This document shows, in pieces, positions 10,066-63,878 of a stretch of 64,000 bases of DNA. The stretch is from Scenedesmus sp. ARA3. Lineage: Eukaryota > Chlorophyta > Chlorophyceae > Sphaeropleales > Scenedesmaceae. The notes beneath the pieces are model-generated. The model worked only from the letters and a program-made list of their open reading frames with translations, made no database searches and had not been told where the DNA came from. Positions within the stretch are counted from its first letter, which is position 1. Each line of letters starts with the position of its first letter. The DNA is taken from contig RWJK01001839.1 in NCBI GenBank assembly GCA_004335835.1, positions 1 through 64,000 of the forward strand, given 5' to 3'. A program made the translations under genes and the position numbers.

Positions 10066-10925
10066 ATGCAGCTCCGGCCGCTAGAAGCTCGCCAAGCAAC
10101 CGCAGGCAACAAGCGTAAACAGATTAGCGCAGCTCCTGCTGTCAGGGCAGGGCTGCACCGTGTCAGGCCCCAGCCCCACACCAACACCCGCCACAAACAA
10201 CCTACATCCACCTGCAACGCTGCAGCCACCTCCTCAACTCTCGAAGACACAGAAATCACATCAAATCCCTCAGCATGCCCCTTTGCAGCAGCAGTAGGCA
10301 GCAGCAAACGCAGTCAGCCTGGCGCGCAGCTGTCAGCAGCAGAGGTTGCTGCCCTGCAGGGCCCTGGCTGGGCAGCTCTGCCAAATGGCAACACAGCAAA
10401 CCTGCCGCAGCCTGAAGGCAAGCACAGCTGGAACCCGCTGCAGCTGCTGCTGGGCGACTTCCCTGAGCTGCAGCAGGGGGAGGTGCCATTCCTGCTGGAG
10501 CGCCTGAGGTGAGCAGCGGCAGCAGCTCGTCCTGCAAGCTTGTCCTGCAAGCTGCTCCGGGTTCAGTTTCGCCTACTGCAGCATGTGTGTGTGCCGCCAG
10601 TGCGGCGTGCTGTCAACTGGATCAGTAGCAGCATGTGTGGGTGTTGCAGCAGGGCTGGCAAAATGCATTGAACAAGGTACATGCATGAGCGCCCTAGCTC
10701 CCGAGCTCCATCTGCACATAGTGGCGTTGTGAAAGCTGCATGTCCTTGCGCAAAGTCTATCTGTCCTCTGATCGGCCGCCTTGTGTGCATGCACTTGCTG
10801 CTGCTGCAGGCTGTTTGGGCCTGTGTTCAAGTGGAAGTTTGCCACAGACACAGTGGTGGCTGTGCTGGAGTATGACACCATCAAGAGCCTGCTGCAGCAT
10901 GACGGCACGGTGAGTTTGCAGCAGT

Positions 10926-10956
<31 letters not shown>

Positions 10957-13255
10957 GCGGCTTCAGCAGCAGCAGCAGCATGTTGGTGGTGGCTGTGCTT
11001 GGTATGACACCAGCAAGAGCCTGCTGCGGCATGACGGCACAGTAAGCTTGCAGCAGCGGCGGCGGCGGCAGCAGCAGCAGCGGCGGCAGCGGCAGCAGCA
11101 TGTTGATGGCAGCGCAGATGTCTCCCTGCTGATGCTGAAACACAGGCAAGCGCGGCTGCCGCCATCTTCGCTTGTAGCCGCCTTCCTGCAGCAATTGCAG
11201 CAATGTCACCCAACCTCACTGCATATCTTCCGCAGGCCATGGCCTTCTGGGCTGCCCCAGGGCTGCAGGCAACCGGCTGCTCTCTCACTCCCCCTGCTTC
11301 CCTCCTCCAACACACCCTCCCTTCTCTCATGAGGCCTCGCTGCTTATGTGCCGCACATAATGGCCTTCTGGGCTGCCCCAGGGCTGCAGGCCATCGGCAG
11401 CAACAGGGCCCGTGATCACTCTTGCCTAGCTCAACTTCTGCACACGCAATGTCACTGAAACTCACTGCTTATCTGCCGCAGGTTATGGCGTTCTGGGCCC
11501 CCCCAGGGCAAGCCATCGGCAGCAGAAGGGCCCGTGATCACTCTTGTCTAGCTCTCTGCACACGCAATGTCACCCAACCTCACTGCCCACTTGCCGCAGG
11601 TCATGGCCTTCTTGACTCCTCCAGGGCTGCAGGCCATTGGCAGCAAAAGGGCTCGTGATGTCTCTTGTCTAGCTCGATCTCTGCACACGCAATGTCACCT
11701 AAACTCACTGCTTATCTGCCGCAGATTATGGCCTTCTGGGTCCCCCCAGGGCTGCAGGCCATCGGCAGCACAAGGGCCCGTGAACACTCTTGTCTAGCTC
11801 AGTTTCTGCACACGCAATGGCACCCAGCCTTACTGCTTATCTGCTGCAGGTCATGTCCTTCTGGGCGCCCCCAGGGCTGCAGGCCATCGGCAGCGAGGCA
11901 GGCAATAAGGCCATGGCTGACCCTTCGGCACGCATGGTGCAGCGCAAGACCCTAGCACCCGGCTTCTCGCGGCAGGCGCTGCGGCAGGTGGGTTTGGCTG
12001 TTTTGGCTGTTTTGGCGCCAAGCAGGAGCAACAAAGCTTCTTGATGTGTGCATCAGCGCAGCCAATTGAGGACACTGGAGGGTAATGCAGCGGCGCTGGG
12101 CAGCAGCTGAGGCATGTCCCAGCGCCTGCCATCGCAACTGCATGTATAAGAAACATGGAACCAACTCATCACCATCATCATGCGCATACTCATCATGTAG
12201 GTGCAGCGGCAAGGTTGATGCCATCGCTGCGTCCACCTGGCACATCACGCAAGTTGACGATGGATTGACTTTATCACCTGCCAATGTGCTGCTTTGCATC
12301 GCAACATTTGCAGTGAGCTTGACGCTGAAGCGAATCACTATACTGTGCTGCTGCAGGTGTTGGGCAAGGTGGAGGCCACCACTGCCGCCCACCTGGACTG
12401 TTGCAATCATGCTTCTTTCCACTATTGGCCCTGACCCAGCTTTCACATTGAGCTGCTGCAGGTGTTGGGCAAGGTCGAGGCCATTGCTGCCAGTCACCTG
12501 GCGCAGTGGGCTGCTGCTGAGGACCCCATCGACCTGGCTGTGGAGGGGCGGCAGCTGGCCTTTGACTTCTCCACGCAGCTGCTGGTAGGTTTAGGGTTTA
12601 GAGTTTAGAGTTCAACTTTATGCATTTTCTGGGTTCAGGGTCTAGGTGCGTGATGTTGTGGACCTAGCTGTGGAGGGGCGGCAGCTGGCCTTTGACTTCT
12701 TCACGCAGCTGCTGGTGGGTTGCACAGCTATATCATCTGTTATCACATGAGCATCATTTGATTTGAATCATCAAGATTGCCATGCCGTCGCTTACATGCT
12801 GTCACACGTGCATATGCTGCTGGCATGCACCCAACCTGCTGTCACAAAGCCCTCAAGTGCCTGCGCAGCAGCCATTTGTTGACATCCCTTGCTTCTGCTT
12901 CTGCTGCTGCTGCCGCCGCCGCCGCCGCCAGGTCAACTTTGATGTGCCGGAGCAGCAGCGTGCGGCGGTCAAGGCCAAGCTTGACGCCATGTTCAAGGCC
13001 ATGATGGCACCGCCGCTCAACCTGCCCGGCACCACGTGAGCACGCTGCAGCTGCCCCCGCATAGCTAGCTGCAACCAGCTGTGCCGAAGTGCTGCTATGC
13101 TTGTCTGATGGAGCCTGCTCATTGCCTTGATTTTTCACCAGGCTATTGCTGTGCCAGTGCTGCTGCAACCGCCTTCATGTATCACAGCCAGGCACCGCCC
13201 AGGTCCCCTGTGCACAGATGATAACTCAATACAGCTAATATCTGTGCCTGTTACC

Positions 13256-13296
<41 letters not shown>

Positions 13297-14194
13297 AGCT
13301 TCCGCAAGGGCATTGAGGCCAAGGCGGCGCTGCTGGCAGACATCAAGGAGGTCATACGGCAGGCCGACGCCAGCAGCGGCGACGGCGCGAGCGCATTTGA
13401 GCTATCCCTCAAGTCGCACCGCGCCAACCAGGTGCGGCGAGGCTGCTGGCACTGCTCTGGTGTCGCTGCGAGGACTTGGCAGATGCTGCGTGTCATTACA
13501 GTGGTAACAGTGCGTCAACTCTCACCGCAGATGCTGCGTGCGTAGGGATGTCCGCTGTCATAACATTGGATGTGCTGCAGGGCGAGTCCTATCAAAGCGG
13601 GGCTTGTGACTTGTCCTTCAGCGTCAGTATCGTGCAGTTGCTGACACTTGTACACTCACGATTGTGAATGGGTTTGATTGTTCGCAGGGCGGTGCGGAAC
13701 TGAGCGAGGACACCATTGCAGAGAGTGGCATCAGCCTGCTGCTGGCCGGCACCGACACCAGCGGTGGTGGTGCCACGGCAGCGCTGGCCATGCTGGCACA
13801 AGCCCCTGAAGTGATGCAGAGGCTGCGACAGGAGCAGCAGCAGGTGAGGCTGCACAGGCTCTTTTATCATTGGCGTCCTCACCTTGCAGTCTGTTGGCTA
13901 TGCTGGCGCAAGTGCGTGGCTTTATGCAGAATTGGCGGCAGGAGCAGCAGCAGGTGTGGCTGGTATGCAGCGCTGCGCAGGCTCTCTGTTTGTCCCTTTT
14001 TTGCATTGCTGCCTTGCACTGTGTTGGCGATGGTTGCCCAGGCGCCCTGGGTCATGCACCGCTTGGGGCGGAGCAGCGCCCAGTGCGCACGTGCGACCTG
14101 TGCAGCAGCTGCTTTGTATCCTTCACTCTGTTGTGTGCAGCATCAGGCGCAACACCAAGGCTGCTGCACTCTGGCAAACTGACCCTCTTCATGC

Positions 14195-14232
<38 letters not shown>

Positions 14233-15798
14233 ACTGCTGCTGCTGCAGGTGATTGCGCAGCACGGCCCCGGTCTGAGCCTTGCTGCTGTCGACTCCATGA
14301 CGTATGCGGAGGCGGTGGTGAAGGAGGCGCTGCGCCTGGCGCCACCCGCTGGGGCAATGATGCGGCGGACACTGCTAGACCTGCAGGTGCGGCAGCACAT
14401 ATATCATGCTGCTGCACGAATAGATTAGTAATATTGTGTTTTTCAAAAGGTTATCATACGTAGTCCTGAGCACAACCGTTCGCAATGGAGGAGGCGGTTG
14501 TGCGCCTGGCGCCAGCTGCAGGGGCCATGATGCGGCGGACACTGCTCGACCTGCAGGTGCGGCAGCACACACTCTGCGACTGTGTGTCGCCGTCTGTTTG
14601 CTTCTTTCTTTGCTGATATTCTCGCCAACGCAACAGACTATATGTGGCTGCGCTGGCAGTGCCGGCGCTAGTGGTTGCTTGCTGGGTCCTGCTGTGCACC
14701 ACCCTATCCCCTCCTGCGGTGCGGGGGCGTGCATCAAACATCCCTGCCACACGATGTTCTCGCCACACATCATGCTCACACGCACTGCAACCTGCCCCTC
14801 CGTCGCACATGTAGATTGGTGGCAAGTTCATCCCTGCAGGCTCGCTGCTGTTCCTGTCCACCTTTGTGGGCTCACACCACATGCCTGCCTATTCCTGCCC
14901 CTTATTGTCTGCATGCAGATTGGCGGCAAGTTCATACCTGCAGGCTCGCTGCTGTACCTGTCCACCTCATGCTTGCTGTCGCTTATTGTTCCGTGCCTGC
15001 TGCCCCTTGCTACATATGCAGATTGGCGGCAACTTCATCCCTGCAGGCACGCTGCTGTATCTCTCCACCTCATGCTTGCTGTCACTTATTGTTCTTTGCC
15101 TGCTGCCCCGTGCTACACATGCAGATTGGCGGCAAGTTCATCCCTGCAGGCTCGCTGCTGTACCTGTCCACCTTTGTGGGCTCCAACTTTGCAGACAATC
15201 TACTAAACCCCTCAGGCCTGGATGGCCTCACGCAGCACCCTGCTGCTGCTGCTGCTGTCCATTCTCGCCGTAACATCCCTGCTGCTGAACCCTTCAAGCC
15301 GTCAACCACTACGCTTGCCTGTCCCTGTCCCTCCATTCCGCATGCATGCAGATCGGCGGCAAGTTCATCCCTGCAGGCTCGCTGCTGTACCTCTCTACCT
15401 TTGTGGGCTCCAACTTTGCCGACACGCAGCTCAGCCCCTCAGGCCTGGCAGGCCTCACGCAGCGCCCTGCTGACCTGGCAGCAGCAGCATCAGCCTGGAG
15501 CCACGTGGACCACAGCCTGCTGCAGCAGCAGTTCAAGCCTGAGCGCTGGCTGAAAAAAAGTGAGGGAGATGGCGCCAGTAATGTGTGGGGGTCGTCCGGC
15601 CTGCTGACGTTTGGCTCTGGGCCGCACGTGTGCCTGGGCATGAGCCTGTTCATGGTGGAAGCAAAGGTGCTGCTGGCGCTGCTGGCAAGGGAGTATGACA
15701 TTGCGGCGGTGGCGCCTGAGGAGCTGCGCTTTGAGCAGCTGGTGGCAGCGCAGCTGGTGGGCAATGCTGGCTCGGTGGTGCGGGTGGCCAAGCTGTGA
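10066..15798 (+). CDS. Cytochrome P450 (nine exons, probable plastid targeting)
   Basis: Haem-thiolate monooxygenase; substrate unknown. Exons: 10066-10508, 10810-10909, 11850-11987, 12462-12584, 12932-13035, 13299-13431, 13688-13843, 14249-14386, 15352-15798. All junctions are GT-AG, phases agree and the product is 593 residues. The first ~110 residues are Arg/Ser/Ala-rich before the P450 fold begins (HSWNPLQLLLGDFPELQQGE), consistent with a transit peptide. Visible P450 signatures: I-helix LLLAGTDTSGGG (exon 7), K-helix ExxR as KEALRL (exon 8), FKPERW, and the haem loop FGSGPHVCLG with the cysteine ligand (exon 9). The haem loop has His where most eukaryotic P450s have Arg, a variant common in bacterial P450s. 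I cannot assign a CYP family. Nearly every intron carries degenerate copies of the adjacent exon edge (see repeats). The chosen exons are the copies that keep frame and motif integrity. Confidence 0.85.
10979..11046 (+). repeat. Echo of P450 exon 2 end
   Basis: A degenerate copy of the last part of exon 2 (Val-Val-Ala-Val to His-Asp-Gly-Thr codons plus the GT donor) lies in intron 2, separated from the exon by (CAG)n runs. One base of the coding pattern is missing near its start, so the copy is not in frame throughout. Confidence 0.75.
11205..11849 (+). repeat. Tandem array of P450 exon-3 acceptor copies
   Basis: Six units including the used exon share the polypyrimidine/acceptor region and the first ~50 nt of exon 3. 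The marker ttctgg (or variant) falls at 11245, 11366, 11491, 11609, 11734 and 11859, giving periods of 121, 125, 118, 125 and 125 bp. The copies carry both synonymous and amino-acid-changing differences. Only the last continues into the full exon (Glu-Ala-Gly-Asn-Lys...). Confidence 0.9.
12200..12461 (+). repeat. Echoes of P450 exon-4 acceptor edge
   Basis: The exon-4 start (caggtgttgggcaaggt) at 12459 is preceded by a close copy about 104 bp upstream near 12355 and by a weaker one near 12200. Both carry their own AG acceptor. Confidence 0.7.
12589..12612 (+). repeat. Short telomere-like repeat in P450 intron 4
   Basis: Just inside the intron-4 donor the sequence reads TTTAGGG, TTTAGAG, TTTAGAG. 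This is about three degenerate units of the plant/green-algal TTTAGGG telomere motif, sitting between two copies of the exon-4 end. Confidence 0.5.
12671..12718 (+). repeat. Echo of P450 exon-4 donor edge
   Basis: Nearly exact copy of the last ~45 nt of exon 4 plus its GT donor, about 130 bp downstream in intron 4. One codon differs (Ser to Phe, tcc/ttc). The DNA between the original and the copy includes a telomere-like TTTAGGG stretch. Confidence 0.8.
13895..14095 (+). repeat. Echoes of P450 I-helix exon end
   Basis: Two degraded copies of the exon-7 3' edge (Met-Leu-Ala-Gln...Gln-Glu-Gln-Gln-Gln and donor) lie in intron 7. The marker gagcagcagcaggtg falls at 13832 (used exon) and 13943 (111 bp later), with a poorer copy about 125 bp further on. 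Confidence 0.7.
14490..14575 (+). repeat. Echo of P450 exon-8 end
   Basis: Copy of the exon-8 3' end (Leu-Ala-Pro...Ala-Met-Met-Arg-Arg-Thr-Leu-Leu-Asp-Leu-Gln plus donor) displaced by 170 bp into intron 8. It is highly similar, with mostly silent differences. Confidence 0.8.
14812..15235 (+). repeat. Tandem echoes of P450 exon-9 start
   Basis: Four copies of the exon-9 beginning (Ile-Gly-Gly-Lys-Phe-Ile-Pro-Ala-Gly-Ser-Leu-Leu) start near 14814, 14918, 15021 and 15124, i.e. every ~103 bp, before the used exon at 15352. Each has an AG immediately upstream. The 15124 copy extends to ~35 codons. In its first ~24 codons it differs from the used exon only at silent sites. Confidence 0.85.
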
Positions 15799-15835
15799 CC
15801 GGCTGACATTTGGCGACGCTTTGACCAGCTCATGG

Positions 15836-16170
15836 CGGCGATGCAGCCGCAGATTTGCGTTATGACCAGGTGGGTTTGGCTCTGGGCCGCATGTGTGTCT
15901 GTTCATAAAGGAGGCAAAGGTGCTGCTGGCGCTGCTGGCACGCGAGTATGACATTGTGGCAGTGACGCCTGAAGAGCTGCGCTTTGAGCAGCTGGTGGCT
16001 GCGCAGTTGACGGCAATTGCTGGGTCAGTGGTGAGGGTGACCAAGCTGTGACCGGCTCATGGCCGTTGTATAGCGGATGGTTGCGCAGGAGCTGCGCTTT
16101 GAGCAGCTCGTGGCGGCGCAGCTGGTGGCAATGCTGGCTCGGTGGTGAGGGTGACTAAGCTGTGAGCAGC
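15836..16170 (+). pseudogene. Two partial copies of the P450 3' end
   Basis: Downstream of the stop, the last part of exon 9 recurs twice. The marker gagctgcgctttgag is at 15721, 15974 and 16089. The first copy keeps a damaged haem-loop region (ttgggctctgggccgcatgt-like stretch near 15880) with a deletion after the cysteine. Both copies end in a stop-codon equivalent. They lack upstream exons and splice sites, so they are broken duplicates, not a second gene. Confidence 0.8.
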
Positions 16171-18528: not shown

Positions 18529-20465
18529 TTAGAACTCCAGGTCGTGCTCGAAGGACGCGGCCACGCGGGGCACGGGCTGGTTGGGTGACTTAAATGCCAC
18601 AAACTTGAGTGCCTTGTAACCGTACTCGAGCGAGAGGTCGTCGGTCTTGAGGTTCCAGCCGAACTTGTACTTGCCTCCGTGCATGGGCCGGCTGATGGCG
18701 AGGCTGGGCGCCTTCTTGACCAGGTTGTAGCTGGGCTCGTAGGTCCACTTGTCGTCGGTGAGCGCGATCTTCACGTTGGTGACCTGGCGCAGCGGACACA
18801 GAGGGAGACAAGGGGGTGTTGATTGAGTGAAGATATGATTCAGTGAATCAGTGAGTGCACTTGCCATCAGTTGGCGCGATCTTCACCCTGGTGACCTGGC
18901 GCAGCAGAGAGAAAACACAGAGAGAAACGACAGCACAGTCATTCGGTGGGTGAGTGCGCTTGTCGTCCGTGAGCGTGCTTGTCACGCCGATGACCTGGAG
19001 CAGCAATGACATGACTTTAACCAGCAACTGCGGTCTGCAGAGCAACTGGGCCGCTGCAGGGACCATCAACGACACAGACAACACACAGACAACAAAGAGA
19101 CAAAAGGGTCCCTAAAACATGACGACGCCAAACCCACCTGCTTCTCAGTGAAGGCCACTGTGGCCTTCTTGTTGGCTGCCAGTGCGCTGATGACCTCGCC
19201 GGCCACGTTCTTGGTCTTGGTCAGGTAGTTGAGCTGCAGGGCAGACAGACAGCATAGCGGCAGGGGCGCAGCACAGTGGGTGACAAGGTGGGTGCATACA
19301 TTGTTTTGCTGGCAGAGAAATGTTGGAGCTGCGGCAGCCAACCAGGCAACAGCCACACGGCTTGCAACTGCCAGCAACGCAGTGTGAATAGTTGCAGGAA
19401 GCACGCTTTGCTGGAACACCACGCAGGTCCGCCCAGCGCGCCGCACCTTGATGGTGGTCTTCTTGCCGTTGAGCTTGCGGTCGTGCGTGAAGCCCAGCTT
19501 GCTGGCCTTGCTGGCAAGGTTGTGGCTGACGCTCAGCTTGAGGTCGTTGCGCGCCTGCAGGAAGCAAGGACGGAAAAGTGAAGGGTTTTTGGTAAAGGGT
19601 TTGTTGAAATGTGCACAAGCAATTACGATGCGAGGAGACAGCCAAGCCTGATCTAAGGCCGCTGGTGTTGAAAGCCTCACACGTGTACGGCCTGGTGATG
19701 AGTCAACTGCTGTGCATGTACTGCAGAGTGCACAGGTGCTCTACTGCTCATAGGTCTAACTTGCTGCTGATATGCTGGTGTGCATCACAGCCTGCAGCAG
19801 TGCAGCTGCTGCGTTGCCATGTAACAGATGCAAGCTGCACCTTGCGCCGCATGGTTGCCGAACAGGGCACAGCAACCAGCGCCCTTTGTGGTCCCCGCAA
19901 AACAGCACTGCGGCTGCTGACTGTAAACATAGCTGGGCTGCAGAAACTGCCAGAACGCGGGGGCTGTGCAGCTATGATCCCCGCAAAATGCTAATCTTTC
20001 GATGACGCCCTTTGCTGTGCCCTGCTGTGATTGCTGCCTGGTGCCAGAATTGTACCTGCAGGTCAGCTGACAGCACCAGCCCTGGGATGGACTTGATCTT
20101 CCGCACAGTGTTGTCCTGCAACCGCAGCAAGCACGTTCAACGCTGAGTAATAGAAGCAAAGATGAATTTGCATATGCATAGGGTGATACAGGCCCCCGTG
20201 GCGTCGATCACACAGCCACGCAGCCACACGCAGTCCAGATCAGCATGTATATTGCCGTAGCGAGCTCAAGCAATCGCGGTCGAACAATTCATATCAAATT
20301 ATAAAGGTTGCTTACGGTGAAGCCCACGCCCATGGTCAGCTTCTTGCCCAGCTTGTGCTTCAGGCTGAAGTCGCCTGCTGCACTGGGAGAGCGGGCAAAC
20401 TTCCACCCATCGTCTGCCTTCTCCAGCACAGTAATTGAAGCCTTGGGTGTAGCCTTGTTGCCCAT
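18529..20465 (-). CDS. OEP24: OEP24-like plastid outer-envelope beta-barrel
   Basis: Five exons on the minus strand: 20465-20316, 20115-20056, 19554-19447, 19233-19138, 18783-18529. All junctions are phase 0 GT-AG, giving 222 residues, close to the ~213 of plant OEP24. The sequence alternates polar and hydrophobic residues in short beta-strand-like blocks and has no signal or helix. The strongest family match is the C-terminal half: WTYEPSYNLVKKAPSLAISR aligns with the plant OEP24 FEPCYDLAKN...FAISRR block, followed by a strand-rich tail ending in Phe. OEP24 forms a solute channel in the chloroplast outer envelope; that role is inferred from family membership. A VDAC/porin-3 assignment was considered but the motifs fit less well. 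Intron 4 carries two degraded copies of the exon-5 start. Confidence 0.6.
18865..19008 (-). repeat. Echoes of OEP24-like exon-5 acceptor edge
   Basis: The exon-5 start (acceptor plus Val-Thr-Asn-Val-Lys...Asp-Asp-Lys) is repeated twice in intron 4. The marker gacctgg on the + strand falls at 18781, 18892 and 18992 (periods 111 and 100 bp). The copies are moderately degraded. Confidence 0.75.
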
Positions 20466-24330: not shown

Positions 24331-29203
<4,873 letters not shown>

Positions 29204-39857: not shown

Positions 39858-40004
39858 GCTGGCACAGCTGCTGAGTTGTGTGAGCAATGGGTTGAGCTGC
39901 AGCTTGCTTCGCGTGGCGTTACGTGCAACAGCTGCCAATAAAAGCATAGTTGCAGAGCATTCTTTCGGATGTACCAGTATGCTTTTTGGTTGTCGTGGTT
40001 TGTT

Positions 40005-47160: not shown

Positions 47161-49074
47161 ATGCAGCCGAAGCAGCTGGGCCCCTATGAGCAGCTGGTGC
47201 AGTACAGGGAGCAGCTTGCAGCAGACCTGGCGCGTGTGGAGAACCAGGTGAGACCATGCAGCTGCCAGCCGTGGAAGGTGCAGCAGGAAACACGCATGAA
47301 GCAGCAAGAATGTAACATCGTATGTCTCCTTGCATGCACCAGGCGTGTGCGGCAACTGCACAACCCTGACTTGCTGTGTTGATCACAGCATCAGTTGTCT
47401 CCAGGTGCTTGCTCACCTGCTCCTGCTTTCCCTCTGTATAAGAACGAATATAGACACCCACCGAGTCCCCAGGACTACGGTGAATGCGTAGCTGCACATT
47501 GCAAGCAAGGCTTCTGTGCTTCACAGTTCAATCCACGCTCACGCGGCACTCGTAGAAGCCTGGCATGGTCTGACATGATTGGCCGTTGCTGCTGCTGCTG
47601 CAGATAGCAGACCAGGAGTACACATACTTCAACGCTGAGTACTCCCAGGCTGGCAGTGTGCTCAAGGTACGGCGGCAGCAGCAGCAGCAGCAGCAGCGCG
47701 CTGCACACAGCATTCAGGAGCAGTGTCGTACACAGCATTCAGGAGCAGCTTGCTGCATGCCCGGCTGCGCTTACCGCAATGCAGCGCCAGCATCTCGAGC
47801 CCGGCTGCGCTGGCCTGCTGTGGCTAGCCAGATGTCAACTCCGCCCGCTGATCGCCTGCTGATCGTCTGCTGCTCGTACTTTTTGACTTTTCCGCAACAT
47901 CCTAACCCCGCACCCTGCAGGGCTTTGAGGGCTTCCTGTCCACCAAGGAGGCGCTGCGCAAGCGCCAGCAGCGCGCCTTCAAGCCCGAGGACAGGCTCTT
48001 CAGCCTGAGCAGCCACACCTCGCCCGTGGTGAGTGCCTGAGAGTGCTGATTCATTTGCACAGCCGCGCAGCACTAGCTGCCGTCTAGCTTCACAGCGCCT
48101 TCAAGCCCGAGGACAGGCTCTTCTCCCTCAGCTCCCACACCTCGCCCGTGGTGAGTGGGCGATAGTAGTACTACATGTGCGCAGCTGCATGGCTCTAGCT
48201 GTTGGATACTCTATAGCGCGTGCAAGCCTAGGGAGCAGCTTCTTCACCTGAGCTCCCACACCCCGCCGGTGGTGCGCAGCGGCACGGCAGTGGGGTACTC
48301 AGCGATGCTGCATAGCGCCAGCGGCTGCGTATCTGCGCACTACCAGCTGCTCGTCAGCAAGCAGCCATTGCAGGCCAGTGAGCTGCAGGGTAGCAGCATC
48401 AGCACACGTTGCTGCTGCCAATGCTGCAGCCAGCACCTTGAACAACAAGCTGTCCCTGGAGTTAAACACCACCTGTTCTACTGCTGCTGCTGCTGCTGCT
48501 GCTTCAGGCCAAGGAGCTGCAGGGGCCTGAGGCAGTGGACGGCCTTGCAGGAGGGGGCTTCGGCAAAAAGGTGGGCACTGCCTGCAGCATTCATGCTGCT
48601 GCTGTGATGGTCGTGCGTGTTGTCTCTGTGGGTTTTTTCATGTAGCAGGAGGGGGCTGTGGCAAAAGGTGGGCAGTGCCTGCAGCATTCATGCTGCTGCT
48701 GTGATGTTTGTGTATCATTTCCTGTGTAGTTTTTAGGCGGTAGCAGGAGGAGGCTACGTCAAGAAGGTGCGGCGGGGTCCGGTGCACTGTGTGTAACATG
48801 TCACGTGTCACATGTCACTTGCTCAAACGGAAGTAAGGCGCTCCTATGAGGCATATGCCTCTGCAGTTCTGGGTACTGCTGTAGGCTTCCGCCCGCAGGC
48901 GGCACGCTCGCATGCTGACCTTGATCTCAAAGACACAAGTGGAGTATGATTGTGCTGTGCCGTGCTGTGCCGTGTTGTTGACGGAGAATTTGCTGTCCTG
49001 CTGCTTGCTGCTGCCAGGGCTACGCCTCCAAGGGTTATGCGCAGAAGGGCTATGCACAGAAGGGCAAGCGCTGA
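47161..49074 (+). CDS. EAF6: NuA4 histone acetyltransferase subunit EAF6
   Basis: Small non-catalytic subunit of MYST acetyltransferase complexes (NuA4, and in animals HBO1/MOZ), acting in the nucleus. Five exons, all phase 0: 47161-47247, 47604-47666, 47921-48028, 48508-48570, 49018-49074; 125 residues. Residues 5-50 are the EAF6 coiled coil (LGPYEQLVQYREQLAADLAR, then IADQEYTYFNAEYSQAGSV). The diagnostic core follows: LKGFEGFLST and FKPEDRLFSLSSHTSPV, matching the GNxxKGFEGFL and FKxEDRLFSxSSxTSP pattern of the family. The C-terminus is a basic triplicate, GYASK/GYAQK/GYAQK, which I do not know from other EAF6 proteins. Exons 3 and 4 are each followed by two intronic echoes. Confidence 0.88.
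48096..48272 (+). repeat. Two echoes of EAF6 exon-3 end
   Basis: Copies of the Phe-Lys-Pro-Glu-Asp-Arg-Leu-Phe-Ser-Leu-Ser-Ser-His-Thr-Ser-Pro-Val segment begin at about 48097 and 48218, versus 47975 in the exon (periods 122 and ~121 bp). The first has an AG before and GTGAGT after. Over 17 codons it differs at five bases, all synonymous, including two agc-to-tcc serine changes that need two substitutions each. The second copy is degraded. Confidence 0.92.
48645..48770 (+). repeat. Two echoes of EAF6 exon-4 end
   Basis: The exon-4 end and following intron (gcaggagggggctt... and cattcatgctgctgctgtga) recur at 48645 and, degraded, at 48743, versus 48547 (both periods 98 bp). Confidence 0.85.
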
Positions 49075-50967: not shown

Positions 50968-53900
50968 TCACATCAGCAGCGTGGTCTCCACCAGCAGCTT
51001 GCAGACCACGTATGGGTCCAGGTTGGATGCGGGCCGCCTGTCCTCGTAGTAGCCGCACTTGTCCACGGGCACGGTGCGGCCCACGCGCACGCTGCAGCCG
51101 CGGTTGGCCACGCCCCAGGAGAAGTCTTGCATGGAGGAGGTCTCGTGCTTGCCGGTCAGCCGACGCTCGTTGCCCTGCGGGCAATTGGCAGCAGCAGGAG
51201 CTGAGATGAGGGTCAAGCACATAAGAACGCGAGTTGACCATGAGGGGTTGCATGCACAGTTTTGCCATTGCCCCACCTGGTGGACTTCAAGACTTGAGAC
51301 AGGGATTTTTGATGTGGCTATTTGTGATTGCAGACACAAGAAAGCTCCTCACCTCGCTGTAATGCGCTGCGCGATATGCCAGGCATCGACACTGAGAGAC
51401 CCAACACCAAGTTCACATGCACCGGAAAAAGCTTTACGAACGACCGGCGCGCACCTCGCCGTACTGCGCAATGTGGAAGGCGTGGCGCTTCTCCAGCTTG
51501 GCGATCTGCGCCTGGATGGCGTCCCAGCCCGTGCCCGCGGCGCGCGTGGCGTTGTTGGAGTAGTTGACGTGGCCGCCCGCGCCGTTCCAGTCGCCTGCAG
51601 CAGCGGCGGCAGAACACAGCATGTTATATATGTAGCGAGCCAGCTGTTGCCTGTCAAATGTCGTTTGGCATTGATCTCTTTGTAACAGCAAAAGCCTGAA
51701 GCCCCACCTGGGTTGCGCTTGACTTGACTCGGCAGGCATATCAAAATGAGACGCACACTCGTTAGCTGTCAAACCTCAAACCCTTTCAAAGCCTTGACCC
51801 CCACCTGGGATGGGCTTGGGGTCGAAGACGGCCTCCACGTTGTAGCTCTCAGCAGGCACACATCTGAAGAGAACCCTAAACACTCTAGCTTCAGAAGTCA
51901 CAAAACCTAGCAGCCTCAAACCCCACCTGGGATGGGCTTGGGGTCGAAGGTGACCTCCACGTTGTAGCTCTCAGCCAGGCGGTACAGGATGTAGCGGGAC
52001 ATCCACATGTGGTCGCCGCCGTCCATGCACAGGCAGGGGCCCACCTGGCGCAACAGCAGACGCAGCACAACAGGGGGTCAGCGCGAGGCGAAGTCAGACT
52101 TAATGCACTGTTTCTCTCATTTCCCCTGGCGCAGATGCACTCGCAAGATTCACCTTGCCCAAGCCTCAGCGCTGCAGAGCAGACGGCATGTATCTGATTG
52201 CACATAGAGGGCACACAGCAGACGGCACATATCCCTGCAGCCTTCCTGCAGTTTCCACACGACGCTCAACACAGCATGAAAGATACAAACTGCAGGAACC
52301 GCAGCCCCATCAGAACTCACTTCGCGTCACAATTCAGCAGAAGCAGGCTAGATACAAGCAGCAGCATGCCTTACCTGGTACTCCCACTGCGAGGGCATGA
52401 CCTCCGCGTTCACGCCGCTGATGTTGATGCCCGCGTACAGGCACATCTTGTAGTGCACGTCAGCCAGGTCGCGCCCGATGGCGCAGCCGGCGCCAGCGGA
52501 GCAGTAGTAGGGGCCCTGCGGATAACACACGACAATCAGCAGCCACAACCTTAGGTATTGTGAAAGGGGTGCAACCAACAACCAGCTAAGAGTGGGCGAA
52601 TGGCTTTGAATGAACAGCCGGCCGTACTGAGCAATTCTTATGGGCAATCCACCTCCACCAACCCCGGCTGCTACCGGATGAGAAATGGCCTTGAGAGCCG
52701 AGCAGCAAAACAAAGCACAGCAAAGCGAAGCAAGCACAGCAAGGAAAGAGCAAAGAGCAAGCAGCAAAACGCAGCACAAAGCCACACCTGGGGCGCGGGG
52801 TAACCGTTGTCAGGCCAGCCCAGGGGCCACTTGGTGAGTGCGTTGAGCAGCGTGTACTCCTGCTCGATGCCAAACCTGCGGCAGCAGTGAAGATGGCACG
52901 ATGCAGAGGATGCAGCAGTCATTTGGTGCAGTTTGCCTGGAGCAGCGTGTACTCCTGCTCAATGCCAAACCTGCAGCACAATGAAGATGCAGCAGCCGGT
53001 TTAAAAGTGCAGTTGCGCGATGCGCGGCAACAGCCTGCAACGCAGCACACCTGTCACACACATGCAGCTATCAAAACACCAGCACCAGCACCAGGAAAGC
53101 ACGGTCGACAAAGCGGCAACAGTATGCGACTACCAGACACGGAAGCAACACAGTCAACCGTTACGCAGACATACACCCACCAGGGTTCCTCGTCCTTGGC
53201 CTTCCCCATGACAGCCGTACAACATTAGCACGCATCCCACCCACAACATGCGGCTACAGGCAGCAGCAGAAACGGCAGCAGCAGCAGCCACCCACCAGGG
53301 CTCCTCGTCCTTGGTTTTCTCCATCACTGCCGCGAGCAAGCAATTCACCCACCACACGCAGTTTAGCACACGCGCCATCCACAGCAGCAGCACCACCACC
53401 ATCCAACCACACCCACCAGGGCTCCTCGTCCTTGGCCTTCTCCATCACTGCTGCAAACCAACAGCAAGCAAGGCAGTACACGCACAGCAACCAGTATGAT
53501 ACACGTGCCCCCCACAGCAGCAGCAGCCACCCACCAGGGCTCCTCGTCCTTGGCCTTCTCCATCACTGCCGCGCAGGCGTAGCGCGAGTTGGTGGGGATG
53601 GGCTTGGGCGCCTCGATGGTGCCGTCAGGCCCGGCACGAGGCGGCTCGTAGGTGTCGCACAGCACGAGGATGTTGTCACCCATGCGGAAGGGGTCCCTGC
53701 GGCAGCGGGGTTGAAGCAGCAGGTGCAGAGGGTTTACGCAATATATTTTGGGTTCAAACGAAGTTCAGGGGCGTCGCACAGCATGAAAATGTTGTAGCCC
53801 ATGCAATGCAGAAGAGTGGCTGTTGTCGCAGCAGGTGCAAAGGGTGGTAGGGTTGTGAACTTTAGGGTTTTGAGCCTTGCTGGTGTCGCACAGCACCAAT

Positions 53901-57912: not shown

Positions 57913-57951
<39 letters not shown>

Positions 57952-58785
57952 AGGCCTGACAGCACCAGGTCGATGCGCGGGCACCAGGGGTAGGACAGCG
58001 ACTGCAGCAGCGCCATCTGGCGCACGCTCAGCGTGTTGATAGCCAGGATGCCCATCTGCATGCAGCATCATGTTTAAGTTAAATATATAGTATAAACAGG
58101 CACATCTCAATGGTTTTTAGTAATGTTCAAAGTGCAATGCACCGCTGAGCGTGTTGATGGCCAGGATGCCCATCTGCAGGAAGAGCGGCACGCATACCCT
58201 GTCATATTCAGCCATTGGTAGATACATATGAGTGCACGCTGAGCGCATTGATGGCCAGGATGCCCATCTGCATGGGGCACATGAAAAAACAGTTCCTCAT
58301 CTCGATCTACCAATTAAGCCATATCAATAACAGCAGTGGCCCCGCGCTCAAAACCAGCAAATAACACAGTTGTGAAACCAAAGAACATGTGAATGCATGT
58401 CGACAGAGTACTGCACCACGCGCAGTGCGTACAGGGTCGTTTTGTGTGGTCACAGCCATTATCACAACACAAATGCAATCGCTCTGTCACCAACAGCACC
58501 CCACCCACCTGCAGCCCGATGACCTGAATCTGCAGCAGTGCCAGGCTCTGCTGCCGCACCAGCATCGACTCGGCATGCATGCGTGCCTGCTGCTGCTGCG
58601 GCAGCACCTGCTGCTGCTGCTGCTGTGCTGCCACCAGCAGGCCGTCCCTGGCAGCCTGCTCAATGGCTGCATACATTGGCTCCATGCTTGCGGCCATGCT
58701 GCTGCTGAGGGTTGTCAGCGTGGCCAGCTGCTGCTGGGAGAGCTCCAGGTGGCCTGCGATGGCGGACCAGGCCCTGCAGCAGCAG

Positions 58786-58816
<31 letters not shown>

Positions 58817-60780
58817 GTGTGAGAGCTTGGGCACGCTTGCTGGCAGCTGGAATGATGCAGGCGCGTTCTAATGCAGAAGAGGCAATGCGTTGCACAGCTT
58901 GCTGTCACATTGCGTTGTGAAATGCATCGGTCCATCAAAACTGTCTATCACAGCGCAAGTGTGGCTCACTGCGGGCAGCCCAGGTAGCTCAATGCTCCAC
59001 ATTCACTCCTGTGGCGGCAGCGCCTCCTGGGTGTCCAGGTTGCGGTTGTGATTGGCGATCAAACACCATTAGGGAACACAGAGCACACACAGCGAGAACA
59101 GAGAAGGCATGCAAGAAACACGCAACTCACTCCTGCGGCGGCAGCGACGTCTCGCCCGTCTCCAGGTTGCGGTTGTGGATGGCAGTGAACCGCGGCTCCG
59201 CCCACAGCATCAGCGTCATCAGCAGCGCCACAAAGTGCAGCGGTGCAGGCAGCTCCTCCATGTGCGCTGCTGCTGCCGCTGCTGCTGCAAGGCTGCCCTC
59301 GTCTGCCTGCCAGCTGCAGTCACCCGGCCAGCCGGCGGCAACAGCAGCAGCACGTGTCGCTGCCACTTGACCAACTAACCCTGCCTGCTGCTGCTGCTGC
59401 TGCTGCTGCTGCGTGGCGAGTGCCTGGCAGCAGCTGCCGCATGTGGCAGGCGTGTCAGCAGACGAGCCGCCTGCTGTGACAACAGCTGTGTCGCTTGCTT
59501 TGGCCGCCTGCTGCGTGTCGCTGGCTTGCTGGGAGGGTGGCATGCCGCTGCTGCTGCCGCCGCTGCGCATGAGCAGTATGGCACTGCGGCCCACCAACTC
59601 CTTGAGGCGGGCCACGATTACTTCATCGGGCATGGCGAGAACCTGTGCAGCAGCAGAAGCAGCAGCACGTGCTGAGCTCAAAGCGTTACTTTTTCCGTGA
59701 CCTGCATGCCGTTGGGGAGCAAACGATGCCCATGAAACAGCATACTACAGCAGCGTACTGCGTTGTTGCTGTGCCTGGGACTGCGCTGCGCAAGAGCAGC
59801 TGCTGCAGTCGCACTGCACCTGAACATGTGACACTAATCAGCAGGATGGTTGTCTGACAGTCTGACAGTCTGACTCAGGCAATGACTGATCTATATATAT
59901 GGACATATATCGGCCGCACCTTGTCGATCCAGCTGGAGTCCAGCAAGCGCCTGAGCAGGGCCGTGCTGTAGTGCTCCGTAGCGCCCTGCCCTGCACAACC
60001 GCTGCGTGCCGCTGCAGCAGCAATTCGCTGCGTGCTGCTGTGGCAGTTGGGGGCCGTATGCTGCAGCCCTGGCTGTGACTCGTCAAGCTGCTGCAGCGCC
60101 TGCTGAATCTGCAGCTCCAGGTGCTGCATGTGCTGCAGAGGTGAGGCTGGGTGGTGCTGCTGCAGCAGGGCCATGTACTCAACCACCACACCTAGGCTGC
60201 AAGACAAATGAGGCGCGTGCAGTGAGTGATAGAAATGTTGTCCTGCAAGGGTCAAGCGTGCTGATGCCGCGGCACGTGGGCATGTACTGCTTTGAAGTGT
60301 TCGCACATGGCGCTGTGCACACGCTGCCTAAAGGCAATTTGGTGCTCTGTCGGCAATCTCAATGCAATGAAGCGAAGTTTAGGCTGCATGACAAGTCTTC
60401 CCAGTTCCTGCATGATGCCAGATACATTGCTGGGTGCTGCTGCTGCTGTTGCCGCTGCTGCTGGACTTGCTGCTGTGGCTGCCCCACTGGGCCAGGTCCT
60501 TACCCTTCAGTGACCACTGACAGCATCTCCGCCTTGTGCTTTAGTCGATCCTGCAAGTATGCACGTGATAGAATGTGAATGCCCTGCAGCTGGCCGCTGC
60601 CACGGGTAGCCCTGCCGTGAGGCCTGAAAGCCCTACTGTGCAACTCACCCTGTCCCGCTCTAACGCTTCCACTATCGCCGCGACCTTGCTAGCCTCCTTC
60701 TCATTCCTGATTAACGTCGCTTTCAGCTTACATTTCGAACTGGCCTGTGACATCGCTTTGCTCTTGCTCTGGCTCCCCAT
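57888..60780 (-). CDS. Unrecognised Q-rich helical protein (six exons)
   Basis: Exons 60780-60649, 60550-60504, 60196-59920, 59642-59131, 58773-58509, 58055-57888 join with agreeing phases to 466 residues. The N-terminus is basic and helical (SKCKLKATLIRNEKEASKVA, then ERDRLKHKAEMLSVVTEG). Then follow a Gln/His-rich coiled coil (VVVEYMALLQQHHPASPLQH) and LRRLLDSSWIDKV. Exon 4 has MPDEVIVARLKELVG, a low-complexity stretch, then a hydrophobic block, LHFVALLMTLMLWAEPRF. Exon 5 has MEPMYAAIEQAARDGLLVAA, and the last exon MGILAINTLSVRQMALLQSL before a polyglutamine tail. The basic/heptad start followed by a helical C-terminal part is reminiscent of some algal bZIP-type regulators, but a basic region with the bZIP Asn/Arg signature is not visible, so I do not assign it. 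Confidence 0.7.
57897..57954 (-). repeat. (CTG)n encoding the polyglutamine tail
   Basis: Nearly uninterrupted ctg run on the + strand; in gene sense CAG, encoding ~18 glutamines just before the stop. A second long ctg run at 57717-57765 lies in the 3' flank. Confidence 0.9.
58140..58275 (-). repeat. Two echoes of the last-exon start (58-kb gene)
   Basis: Copies of Met-Gly-Ile-Leu-Ala-Ile-Asn-Thr-Leu-Ser with acceptor. The + strand marker cccatctgca is at 58051 (used), 58169 and 58263 (periods 118 and 94 bp). The first copy differs at two silent positions. The second has three silent changes and one Thr-Ala change. Confidence 0.88.
59000..59060 (-). repeat. Echo of exon-4 end (58-kb gene)
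   Basis: Degraded copy of the exon-4 3' edge (Asn-Arg-Asn-Leu-Glu...Pro-Pro-Gln-Glu and donor), about 121 bp further into the intron. Confidence 0.8.
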
Positions 60781-62062
60781 GGCCGCAGCAAGTTCAGGAC
60801 TTCATCATGTGTTTGATGTGAACCAGTCGTCAAATCGAGATTGCAACAAGTGTACGCTACAGACTGCGTGCTGTGTACAGCACCACTGCCCTGATCAAGG
60901 CATCACTCATGTCATGTCAGGGCTGGTTCCCAGGTTGTTCTTGAGCTGCTCACCTGCCCCAGCAGCCCGTGCTCAGCTCCTACAGCAATGCTAGGGTTTC
61001 ATGCAAGTATCAAACTCTGTCATGGAATAGGCCTCACTGCTGCCCTCTTACGCCTCTCTGCAGTGCAGAAGGCTGTTGCACCTGCCAGTCTCATTTTTCC
61101 AGTGCCCGATAGGGCTGAGGTATGTCCTTGGCCTGCCAGTCTTACAGTGCCACAAACGAATTCAGAGAATGTGAAAGTAAAACCAAACTATAAGTCTGTG
61201 CTCTGTAGAGTCTGAACCAGACACCAGGAACAACCGGGAGAACAAAATCAGAGTCAGCCTGGATCGCTGAGTCCGCGCACCCACCTGCTGCGTGACTCTG
61301 TGTGCTGACCGCACGCACTGCTGCAGCAATTTTGCAGCCCTTAACTGCCTAGCGAACTGTCATGACGCACGAAAAGGCCAACTAGAGCACACACTGTCCC
61401 TCAAGCTGTCCCTCAACAAGCTACCACCAGGGTGACCCTGCTGAGCCAGCCTGGCATGGCCAGCATGATGAGCCACAACAGCATGCAGACCTCAAAACCT
61501 CAGGGTCTAGCGCGCATGCTGGCAGGATGAGGTGCCAAAGAGCCCGTGTGCGCATAGTCATGGTCCTGGAAAAGAGTGCATGTGGTAGATGTTGATGCTG
61601 AGATTCTTGGATCGGATGTGCTGCTGCACCATTTCACTGCTTCAAGCAGCACAAGGACCAGTTGCTTGCTCCCCACCCGGCTGGACTCCTGTACTACAGG
61701 AGAATGTGACATTCTGTGCAGCGATGTGCATCTGTGGTAGATAAGGCAGCCTGAACAATCACTGAGATCATCTCCTCAAGCATCACCCGCCGTGTCAGGC
61801 AAGCACAGCTGCAACACACGCGGCCAACGCAAGCCCGTGCATGATCACGCCGCACCATGTTGACCTGCACCATGTGGAGCAGCAGGTTGCACATAGAGCT
61901 TCACCCGTAGCATCCGGTGTGTGCATGGCAAAGTGCTGGGATCAGCCCAGGTCACACTGGCTGGCAACATACCCACACACAATAGTTGACAGTCACTGTC
62001 AGACGGTCTGAAACCCGAACATTCACACTGAATGCGACTGCGCCATAGCATAGTTGCTACTG
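60781..62062. other. Intergenic between two minus-strand genes
   Basis: Should contain the promoter of the 58-60 kb gene and the 3' UTR of the RJL gene. No coding frame is supported. In particular, nothing encoding a DnaJ domain is visible after the GTPase stop. Confidence 0.4.
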
Positions 62063-63878
62063 TCATCCCGCTATTCCTTCTGCCTGGCGTGCGGCCAGCG
62101 CGTCCCTGCCAGCTGTCGCCACCAGCTCGCAGTCAGCGCCCGGCAGCGTGGCCAGCACCGCAGCAAACAGGCTGCTGAACAGAGCCCGCACGCCGCGCCC
62201 GCTGGCAGCAGATACCTGCAGCCACCACGCACGCGCCGCGTTGTTTATGGACTCCATCCAATGTTGATGTGAGGCTGCTGTGCAATGCTGCTGTAGTAAG
62301 CTAGTGGAGCCGGTTGCTTTGCAGTTGTGATGCTATAAGCTGGAGACTCTCCAGCTTTGCAGTTGGGGTGATCTCACGCAGCGCAGCATGTGATGTGCAG
62401 CACAGCTGCAGCTGCGAGGTGCAGGCAGATTCCTGCAAGCTATGCACCTGACATAAGCAACATGTATATTCATGCCCTCAGGCAGGTATTGCCATACAGT
62501 AAGTCGCCGCGTGCTGCTGCTGGCGTTGCAGGTCGCCAACATGCGATGACACGCGACATGGCAAGCATAGTAGCATGGGCCCGCTCCCGTACACGCCCCT
62601 GCTGCAGCGCTGCTTGCACTTGAACATGCTGCCCCCATGGCCCCACCGCATAGTACGGCATGTTACTGCTGCTGCAGTGCTGCTGTTCCCCGAGCCCAAT
62701 TTGAAGTACGGCTGCCGCGGCTCACGCATGCATGCATGTTACTGCTGCTGCGATGCTACTGCCTGCCGTGCCCACCTCGTAGTATGGCATATTGTGTGCC
62801 AGCGCCCAGGCCCTGCCCTCTGCCTCTGGCACCTTGCGGCCGGGCAGGTCCACCTTGGTAGCAGCCACAAACACCACCTGGACGCAGCACAGATAGACAC
62901 GCAGGAGGCGCAGCTGCTGTCGACCTATGCAGCTCACTGGGAGCAATAGTGCAAAACACATCAACTGCACAACTAGAATTCATCCACGATGTTTGGTGGT
63001 GCACCGATACTGCTGGGCCTCCTGCAGCCAGCCGCGCTCGTGCTAGCTGAACACACCTCAGCTTGCTGTGACAGCACAAACAGAGCCCACCCACCATGTT
63101 GGGCGGTGCGCCATACTGCTGGGCCTCCTGCAGCCAGCTGCCCAGCGCCTCAAAGCTGGTGACGTCATACACCAGCAGCGCGCCCGCTTCATACAACATG
63201 CAATCTCGTTGTCAACAACAGCACAAGCGCATTCAACCCACCATGTTGGGCGGTGCGCCGTACTGCTGGGCCTCCTGCAGCCAGCCGCCCAGCGCCTCAA
63301 AGCTGGCTCGGCTGGTGGCGTCGTACACCAGCAGCGCGCCCTGGCCCTCCTTGTAGAACTCGTTGCGCACCTCCAGGTAGGCTGGGGGCCCCGCCAGGTC
63401 CCACAGGTTAACGCGCACCTTGCAGGAACGGCACAATGGTCAAGGTGAGGCAGGAGCGGGACAGATGGCCATGTGGGAGGCAGAACACGGGCGGCCTATT
63501 TGACTGGTAATGCCCACTGAACGCGTATCAGATTGGAGCTGTAGCATGACTGTAAGCTGGGGTAGGTGCTTGGGCGCCTTGAGCTGCTGCAAGGGTGCCT
63601 CACTGAGCCACACCTGCTCTGCCACCTCCGAAGTGATGAGCCAGGGAGGCGGCTGCATGGACCTGCACTGCCACACTGCTAGCAGTCGCTAGCTGACTGA
63701 CGCAACAACACTGGCCCATACTTGCTACCGGTGTGCTCTGCAGCACCACACGCTGCTGCTGCGCTGTGGCTTTGCGTAGGTGTGTCCCACCTCGTGCTCT
63801 GCAAACTGCACCGGCTTCACGCCATAGTCGACTCCTATGGTGGGGATGTACTTGCTGATGAACTTCTCCTCACAATAC
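62063..63878 (-). CDS. RJL: RJL/RBJ-family small GTPase, 3' part (5' exons off window)
   Basis: Ras-superfamily G protein related to animal DNAJC27/RBJ. Exons seen: 63878-63791, 63418-63242, 62877-62776, 62215-62063 with agreeing phases, ~173 residues. The exon(s) carrying the P-loop (G1) must lie beyond the right edge. Visible features: switch-I/G2 region YCEEKFISKYIPTIGVDYGV, G3 as LWDLAG (followed by PP, not the usual catalytic Gln), VRNEFYKEGQGALLVYDATS typical of RJL, G4 as ATKVD (Thr in place of Asn), and G5 as VSAASG. The frame stops ~50 residues after G5 with no DnaJ domain, unlike the animal protein. The family is thought to be linked to flagella, which is inference here. An intronic echo follows exon 63418-63242. 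Confidence 0.85.
62980..63165 (-). repeat. Two echoes of RJL switch-II exon end
   Basis: Copies of the exon 3' part (Leu-Val-Tyr-Asp...Phe-Glu-Ala-Leu-Gly...Trp-Leu-Gln-Glu-Ala-Gln-Gln-Tyr-Gly-Ala-Pro-Pro-Asn-Met plus donor) lie 146 and ~253 bp downstream in gene sense. The first keeps the reading frame. It has silent Tyr changes, Gly to Ser, Ala to Val and a nine-base in-frame deletion relative to the used exon. The second is degraded. Confidence 0.88.

Follow-up and report, generated by a model that had tools for sequence, protein, structure and literature searches.

The window, by which we mean the whole 64,000-nucleotide stretch of Scenedesmus sp. ARA3 DNA analysed here (contig RWJK01001839.1), holds P450, PAT, CRT-like and EAF6 genes on the forward strand and OEP24-like, glutamine synthetase, 58-kb and RJL (Ras-like) genes on the reverse strand, and their introns contain same-strand copies of the adjacent exon edge, which we call echoes (Table 1). 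Self-BLAST of the window returned 60 same-strand repeat pairs within 3 kb, and TRF located arrays with periods of 97-125 bp at positions 11336, 14806, 25482, 26612, 47973 and 48547; together with a dedicated echo scan, these analyses reproduced the echoes that a preliminary description had reported in the window's multi-exon genes. The alga is Tetradesmus obliquus or stands very close to it. The PAT and P450 models are supported by 99% identical T. obliquus proteins (for the P450, over 81%), and a Pfam search with the OEP24-like gene, whose name comes from that description, gave no match.

Table 1. Echoes and echo arrays in the window. Edge positions are in brackets; steps and spacings are in bp.
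Gene	Edge and echoes	Positions	Strand	Detected by
P450	exon 2 (10810-10909) end; one echo, step 132, GT retained	10985..11041	+	self-BLAST, echo scan
P450	exon 3 start (11850); five-echo array, steps 125, 125, 118, 125, 121; inner spacers alike	11200..11894	+
P450	exon 4 start (12462); echo, step 105	12344..12396	+
P450	exon 4 end (12584); echo, step 130; uncounted	12646..12721	+
P450	exon 7 end (13843); echo, step 110	13895..13962	+
P450	exon 8 end (14386); echo, step 170 (167 by self-BLAST)	14486..14569	+
P450	exon 9 start (15352); four echoes at 227, 330, 433, 537	14791..15245	+
P450	coding end (TGA 15796-15798); two echoes in 3' flank, without splice site	15874..16165	+
OEP24-like	edge 18783; echoes, steps 112 and about 211	18855..19004	-
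PAT	first intron; weak array, spacings 111 and 239	24571..24997	+
PAT	exon 2 end (25346); array, steps 177, then about 122, 123, 122, 118	25470..26021	+
PAT	exon 4 start (27100); four echoes, steps 124, 124, 129, 128	26609..27052	+
PAT	exon 5 start (27625); echo, 97% over 35 bp, step 110	27511..27545	+
PAT	exon 6 start (28162); echo, step 138	28019..28073	+
PAT	exon 8 start (28943); echo, spacing 241	28727..28789	+
CRT-like	exon end (37854); two echoes at about 106 and 218, outer copy identical over 44 bases	37924..38077	+
CRT-like	exon start (38904); echo, step 121	38779..38851	+
CRT-like	coding end (stop ends 39857); 3'-flank echo, spacing 257	39997..40132	+
EAF6	exon 3 end (48028); array, steps 122, 121	48095..48274	+
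EAF6	exon 4 end (48570); array, step 98; short exon part, outside the 107 counted echoes	48645..48769	+
Glutamine synthetase	donor-side edge (51927); echo, step 122	51790..51857	-
Glutamine synthetase	acceptor-side edge (52875); echo, step 95	52920..52989	-
Glutamine synthetase	donor-side edge (53535); array, steps 118, 121, 115	53174..53454	-
58-kb gene region	array, spacings 118 and 95	58022..58283	-	self-BLAST
58-kb gene	donor-side edge (59131); echo, step 124	59003..59056	-
RJL (Ras-like)	donor-side edge (63242); echoes, steps 147 and 107	62959..63185	-

Our sample comprised 297,128 bp in 25 sequences, window included, or ~0.34% of the 87.27-Mb genome, and the scan covered 243 introns, 48 in the window and 195 in 24 further genome stretches, 16 of 259 predicted introns having been left out for length. 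Gene models came from our own HMM gene finder, trained on the same DNA; neighbouring genes were fused in places, and the models are at their least reliable in the predicted starts and stops. The exon segment was limited to 80 bp, simple repeats were masked before counting, and matches that were short or mostly simple repeat were discarded. The scan counted 107 echoes, termed flush where the border lies at most 3 bp from the copied splice junction.

Echoes occurred in 57 of the 243 introns (21 of 48 in the window, 36 of 195 elsewhere), with at least one in 13 of the 24 intron-containing sequences. Exon copies are therefore not limited to the window's genes, although their reported presence in nearly every multi-exon gene describes the window, which is richer in them than the other stretches. 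Adjacent exon ends were echoed in 36 of 237 comparisons and adjacent exon starts in 27 of 238, against 4 of 237 and 2 of 238, respectively, for the far edges, 1 of 212 for exon middles and 1 of 1162 for the antisense strand. When exon segments were compared with introns of other stretches, no score reached threshold (control fraction 0.0), which, with the masking of simple repeats, rules out chance or low complexity as the source. Coding ends were echoed in 4 of 24 stop edges tested (21 distinct, three having been entered twice) and coding starts in none of 33. Median intron length was 461 bp with echoes and 270.5 bp without; longer introns offer more room for echoes, so that length may be cause as well as effect.

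Each echo bears one splice site only, of the same type as the adjoining site of the existing intron, and usually keeps its dinucleotide (GT in 48 of 57, AG in 41 of 50). Echoes with less than 10 bp of intron homology have splice scores near those of real sites (median 6.3 versus 7.2 for donors, 5.7 versus 7.2 for acceptors), as might be expected of decoy or alternative splice sites under selection. We consider such a function highly improbable, however, as dinucleotide retention is about that given by 10% divergence, the single site is accompanied by no evident AG or GT habit at the far end in 31 cases judged by eye, only 25 of 107 echoes are spaced by a multiple of three, and most indels (17 of 27) are single-base. 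The lack of an evident far-end site in those 31 cases and the single-base indels likewise separate echoes from duplicated alternative exons, which carry both splice sites and keep the frame.

The steps are strongly concentrated. In 87 of the 107 echoes they were below 200 bp, with a mean of 120.0 bp (sd 18.4), and a second mode lay near 240 bp; 44 of 65 nearest echoes fell at 90-150 bp, against 16% under uniform placement, and self-BLAST spacings in the window clustered at 92-138 bp and again at ~210-260 bp. Our values for P450 exon 3, PAT exons 4 and 5, EAF6 exon 3 and the glutamine synthetase donor-side edges (Table 1) closely match those measured earlier, and the shared period of ~120 bp stands as a preferred step, but it is not special to exon edges: five intergenic or long-gap arrays had best periods of 95-153 bp and 11 intron-interior arrays of 63-191 bp. 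Arrays in contact with an exon made up 59 of 76, against 44% expected (sd 6%), whereas among arrays of at least 94% identity 4 of 9 overlapped an exon (5 of 9 with 15 bp slack), as by chance (44%), a test of random birth that rests on these nine arrays. The edge preference is thus strong in the whole array set and absent among near-identical arrays. What had been proposed as a genome-wide mechanism is borne out as a process acting across the sampled genome, on both strands, with a step of ~120 bp; growth of introns specifically from exon edges is unsupported, because non-edge arrays have similar periods and arrays of at least 94% identity touch exons at the chance rate.

Borders are sharp, 90 of the 107 copies being flush. 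At the P450 coding end the homology of the outer echo stops exactly at the stop codon and that of the inner extends a few bases beyond, and at the CRT-like coding end it extends ~18 bp beyond the stop. Less than 10 bp of intron homology accompanied 36 of the 90 flush echoes. We compared 43 of these 90, those at 70-180 bp, with simulated whole-unit duplication followed by neutral decay, which yielded so little intron homology in 1% of cases at identity 0.96 and above (n=207) and in 3% at 0.92-0.96 (n=195); the observed fractions were 5/10 and 4/9, together 9/19 at identity of at least 92%. Plain whole-unit tandem duplication with neutral decay alone is rejected by this comparison, although simulation and data are nearer at lower identity (12% versus 3/8 at 0.82-0.88; 27% versus 1/3 at 0.70-0.82).

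It is possible, if on balance doubtful, that a single event writes ~30-80 bp from the exon edge, joined to unrelated spacer, into the adjacent intron, ~120 bp off, through template switching or patch repair, and that slippage later builds the arrays. Such edge-only copying would account for the flush echoes with little intron homology, even at exon identity of at least 96%, and for the lack of residual spacer homology in that class (mean z 0.31, se 0.27, n=35). The spacer of the PAT exon 5 echo has no detectable homology. Edge-only copying would also suit the (E s)n E Z pattern of the spacers, which are alike in 12 of 30 inner comparisons and in 5 of 42 last ones. Yet it leaves the stop at the splice junction or stop codon unexplained, and whole-unit arrays exist too, 17 of 72 comparisons of successive copies showing spacer homology above z 3.5 and spacers being alike in all three comparisons made in the PAT exon 4 array. 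Three spacers searched against the genome, a search in which diverged relatives could be missed, matched only themselves, which counts against such copying and also rejects a mobile element for those three spacers; the PAT exon 4 region returned only its own array.

Exon-echo differences look coding-like. Over the 90 flush pairs the nonsynonymous/synonymous rate ratio was 0.22, where ~0.5 is expected for neutral echoes, and echo-echo pairs differ mostly at third positions (0.096, 0.068 and 0.208); CpG or base-composition context alone is insufficient to produce the third-position excess (0.058 at position-2 CpG versus 0.31 at position-3 CpG). Both patterns would fit echoes that are pieces of a divergent allele or haplotype brought in by unequal exchange, whose borders would lie at coding ends because exons match and introns do not. 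One P450 echo carries the residues of the OEZ86 protein at sites 359, 360, 362 and 372, another does so at 470, 471 and 480, and the echo at 12646-12717 has V138 and V139 in common with it. The DOE0152z assembly is almost double the UTEX 393 assembly in size (PMC5552973), which, by our own reasoning, would fit two haplotypes. We nevertheless regard an inter-allele origin as unlikely: OEZ86 residues are absent from the echo at 455 and 465, so that shared ancestry suffices for these; the fourfold-site difference of 0.228 appears too small to make introns unalignable; at columns that do not vary among seven aligned proteins, PAT echoes show W-to-R and Y-to-N changes; some edges have as many as five echoes, more than two haplotypes would supply; and the best-scored candidates of our genome searches included no second close copy of the tested P450 and PAT exons. 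An in-assembly paralogue is also rejected as donor of the P450 echoes, since the best other P450 is only 49% identical in protein, the longest P450 DNA matches elsewhere in the assembly being 85% over 72 bp and 81% over 73 bp.

Given the observed step, direction, adjacency, edge enrichment, sharp borders and failure of plain decay, we tentatively prefer, while holding it somewhat short of probable, a genome-wide process of short-range duplication combined with long survival and re-copying of the coding half, one copy being pinned by selection. Short tandem duplications with a step near 120 bp would arise in introns, in gene flanks and across exon borders alike, at random places, and most duplicates would drift away. 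Where a duplicate lies over a border between constrained and free sequence, at a splice junction or stop codon, selection on the protein would pin one copy; the coding half of the unpinned copies would stay alike longer because they are re-copied from the pinned copy or from alleles, the repeat itself providing the route through conversion, slippage or unequal exchange. The free halves would meanwhile diverge past recognition, and re-expansion of the repeats would give arrays. The echoed coding ends, the spacers that are alike more often in inner than in last comparisons, and the closer resemblance of the exon to its nearest than to its farthest echo in 16 of 19 arrays also speak for this reading. 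Several points weigh against it: simple conversion does not predict the ratio of 0.22 or the third-position bias, so that alleles must enter; re-copying should also erode echoes at the junction, yet most reach it; near-identical pairs that touch exons are edge-only and not whole-unit, and may therefore be refreshed rather than young; and the absence of residual spacer homology suits edge-only copying equally. Random siting of births, re-copying and the involvement of alleles are inferred, and no conversion event came to light directly.

The precedent we found concerns single genes and not this scale. In the potato RdRp gene, a tandem genomic duplication across an intron-exon boundary made a new intron and passed the parent's splice signals on to the copy (PMC4974935); that case is one gene with a new intron, whereas here copies lie inside existing introns, at both exon ends and in nearly a quarter of the introns scanned, with a preferred step and often without intron homology. 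In the AGGT model, the GT of one tandem copy and the AG of the other form a new intron (PMC3443670). Tandem duplication provides splice-site copies in both, but the alga's echoes sit in existing introns. The AGGT idea, named earlier as a partial precedent, does not fit, as an echo copies a single splice site within an intron that already exists, and echoes also occur at coding ends that close with a stop codon. Introner elements are set aside on the genome searches, which could miss diverged relatives and in which the three spacers and PAT exon 4 found only themselves or their own array. Minisatellite-like intron arrays consist of head-to-tail diverged copies whose inner units expand. The alga's arrays are alike in both respects; unlike minisatellites, they have a gene-specific unit that contains an exon edge, often its coding half only, and a period common to genes. 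Paired nicks and patch repair, in work on Arabidopsis and rice, reportedly would yield tandem duplications of tens to hundreds of bases; to our knowledge these are neither set to a 120-bp step nor tied to the borders of coding sequence. A literature search, mainly of open-access papers, did not find the pattern reported.

With considerable reserve, one may picture exons as repeatedly shedding their own edges into the neighbouring intron, in ~120-bp steps that end at the coding border, so that introns would store dated past states. If so, the P450 coding end would be an example, its two 3' echoes appearing to carry successive ancestral states of the exon (T470/A471/T480 in one echo, V470/G471/T480 in the other, V470/G471/A480 in the exon); the older residues lie in the copy nearer the exon, contrary to outward growth. 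These patterns bear on how introns lengthen and on what sets the size of short tandem duplications. As about a quarter of sampled introns have recognisable narrow-step copies, strain comparison could measure the mutational process, and the sharp borders and coding-like differences could serve to test whether a constrained exon undergoes conversion with its free copies.

Misplacement of read-length pieces of related sequence into introns during assembly would be in keeping with a step close to a common short-read length, with gaps in the assembly (4,802 N in L019) and with an echo divergence resembling that of homologous exons. We think an artefact of this kind quite improbable, because indels and several percent of divergence separate the copies from the exon, and up to five copies lie in a row, in one direction, beside intact gene models; moreover, one part of the query has two matches, 228 bp apart, in a P450-like gene on contig C1542. 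Another T. obliquus assembly argues weakly the same way: 22 of the first 24 residues of its protein OEZ86_004193 match the frame of the 12646-12717 echo, but this start also matches the window's exon at 20 of 22. The echo frame reads RDVV, as does the start of OEZ86_004193, where the exon has EDPI, and V stands at 139 in the relative P0124 as well; the strain behind OEZ86_004193 may simply have RDVV in its exon, or the protein model may begin inside an echo. Echoes can thus mislead gene predictors, and our own gene finder labelled the P450 echo at 12646..12721 an exon, which is why it stands outside the 107 counted.

Introns in this genome contain same-strand copies of the exon edges that they adjoin (echoes), as the preliminary description had claimed for the window, and the same pattern is present in other stretches of the genome. 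Self-BLAST of the window returned 60 near repeats, many spaced around 120 bp, and near repeats of similar spacing were also found elsewhere. The genome comprises 87.27 Mb in 1567 contigs, with the window at 1-64000 in contig C1426; gene models came from a small HMM-based finder that had this same sequence as its training set and was later extended. It predicted 259 introns, the 243 of 60-1500 bp entering the echo analysis. A table in PMC5966456, if its columns are assigned as they appear, puts the average T. obliquus intron at 462 bp. Pfam backs the P450, glutamine synthetase, aminotransferase (PAT), CRT-like transporter, NuA4/EAF6 and Ras genes of the window (the OEP24-like label, from the preliminary description, stands outside this set), and the predicted spliced PAT protein is 99% identical to a Tetradesmus obliquus record across all 465 residues, which places the source in that species (Scenedesmaceae) or very near it. 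Window PAT has A in YSADE, where 6/6 aligned relatives have P, and C in DMCGR, where five have W and one F; these are either strain variants or base errors.

The end of the upstream exon was copied in the adjoining intron in 36/237 comparisons and the start of the downstream exon in 27/238, in the same orientation, against 4/237 and 2/238 for far exon edges, 1/104 and 0/108 for exon middles, and a single match among all 1162 antisense comparisons; control introns scanned for exon-edge copies yielded none. The total is 107 copies at 65 edges (22 bearing two to five copies) in 57 of 243 introns. The single duplication length proposed for both strands also held: 87 of 107 successive spacings fall below 200 bp (mean 120.0, sd 18.4), 18 of the remaining 20 lie at 203-272 bp, about twice the step, and median nearest-echo spacings are 122 and 118 bp by strand and, below 180 bp, 122 bp at donor-side and 118.5 bp at acceptor-side edges. 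One PAT-region array is a dimer-type higher-order repeat, with units 245 bp apart 80% alike over 322 bp and neighbours at 122 bp 67% alike.

Of the original proposal, the genome-wide step finds support, but growth of introns specifically from exon edges does not as stated. Merging near-tandem pairs gave 86 arrays. Exon edges account for 60 of them (one merely comes to 15 bp or less from an edge), another 11 are intron-interior, 10 are exonic and 5 belong to intergenic or long-gap stretches; 59 of the 76 outside exons overlap an exon, where random placement predicts 44% (sd 6%). This edge preference is clear in the full array set only: among nine arrays of at least 94% identity there are four that overlap an exon, and one more comes to 15 bp or less from it. 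Arrays away from exons have much the same periods (95-153 bp for the intergenic or long-gap set, 63-191 bp for the intron-interior set), and the step therefore looks general rather than edge-specific.

Most echoes (90/107) extend up to the splice junction that they copy, to 3 bp or less, and the exon part of most such flush copies is 30-80 bp (80 bp being the analysis cap). GT is retained in 48/57 and AG in 41/50, and 25/107 spacings are divisible by three; that the echoes are functional is very improbable. Intron homology past the junction is shorter than 10 bp in 36 of the 90 flush echoes. Simulated whole-unit duplication with neutral decay gave such short homology in 1% of cases (n=207) at exon identity of at least 0.96 and 3% (n=195) at 0.92-0.96, where 5/10 and 4/9 were observed (17/43 among all echoes compared), and spacer similarity in this class does not rise above the shifted-register level (z 0.31, se 0.27, n=35). 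Copying of the edge alone would fit such short homology; we consider it unlikely, if the strongest competitor. Elsewhere, clear spacer similarity occurs mainly in comparisons of inner copies (12/30) and rarely at the last copy (5/42), the array form being edge and spacer repeated, then edge and unrelated intron. For echo-echo pairs (n=32), mean identity is 0.867 over exon parts and 0.703 over spacers (random 0.603); the gap narrows to 0.861 and 0.798 among the 12 pairs whose spacers are clearly similar.

Exon-echo differences by codon position are 0.070, 0.052 and 0.181 (echo-echo 0.096, 0.068 and 0.208), with a nonsynonymous/synonymous ratio of 0.22, the expectation being about 0.5 when a constrained exon is copied and the copy evolves neutrally; third positions hold 19 of 23 exon-only changes, and fourfold sites differ by 0.228, alignable spacers by 0.156. 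Given this coding-like pattern, some of the divergence seems to have accrued while the sequence coded, as would be the case if the exon, or alleles of it, had been copied at various times. In one gene, the P450, coding-end residues form an ordered series (T470/A471/T480 in one echo, V470/G471/T480 in the other, V470/G471/A480 in the exon); T470, A471 and T480 each occur in two of three related proteins, and the older residues sit in the echo nearer the exon. As an account of its own, derivation of the copies from alleles is less probable than edge-only copying.

Simple assembly duplication would not account for the divergence of the copies or their number per edge, and an assembly artefact of any kind is improbable. 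L019, a further sampled stretch, has N at 4,802 of 10,000 bases, so the assembly either bridges gaps by scaffolding or has had stretches withheld. A protein from another T. obliquus assembly, OEZ86_004193, starts MRDVVDLAVEG; 22/24 residues fit the frame of one tabulated echo, and 20/22 agree with the window exon, which reads EDPIDLAVEG. Judging from these sequences, either the OEZ86 assembly would carry this echo too, or RDVV would be the exon reading in that strain and the window echo would resemble it; OEZ85 and OEZ86 may, at a guess, be two haplotypes. A P450-like gene on contig C1542 has one exon part matched twice, 228 bp apart, an apparent case of an echo in a different gene.

Coding ends were echoed in the 3' flank in 4 of 24 tested (21 distinct), including the Pfam-backed P450 and CRT-like genes, and coding starts in 0 of 33. 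In three (P450 outer copy, L019 and sampled stretch L020) homology breaks off 2 bp or less from the stop codon; in the CRT-like gene it extends 18 bp beyond. Because stop-codon ends are echoed too, a mechanism tied to splicing is disfavoured, on few cases, two of the four being predictions only. The best account, which we favour tentatively and at somewhat below even chances, is that duplication over short distances, in steps of 120 bp, would generate copies whose coding half may persist long and be re-copied. What the data show is the step, the direction, the adjacency and the borders; the re-copying we infer. As far as PMC4974935 describes it, a tandem duplication across an intron-exon boundary in potato offers a single-gene precedent.

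Coordinates of features in the window and in sampled stretches L012 and L013
Feature	Sequence	Position
Echo compared with OEZ86_004193	window	12646-12717
Higher-order repeat array	window	25470-26021
PAT segments with variant residues	window	26314-26384 / 27625-27806
CAG/CTG-type triplet runs (examples)	window	10918-10980, 14192-14246, 28515-28560
In-exon tandem repeat	L013	2918-3330
In-exon tandem repeats	L012	1-213, 8509-9985

Triplet runs are common in the window and often intronic. The tandem repeats inside exons, whose periods are in many cases multiples of three (84, 72, 78, 156), are apparently protein repeats distinct from echoes.
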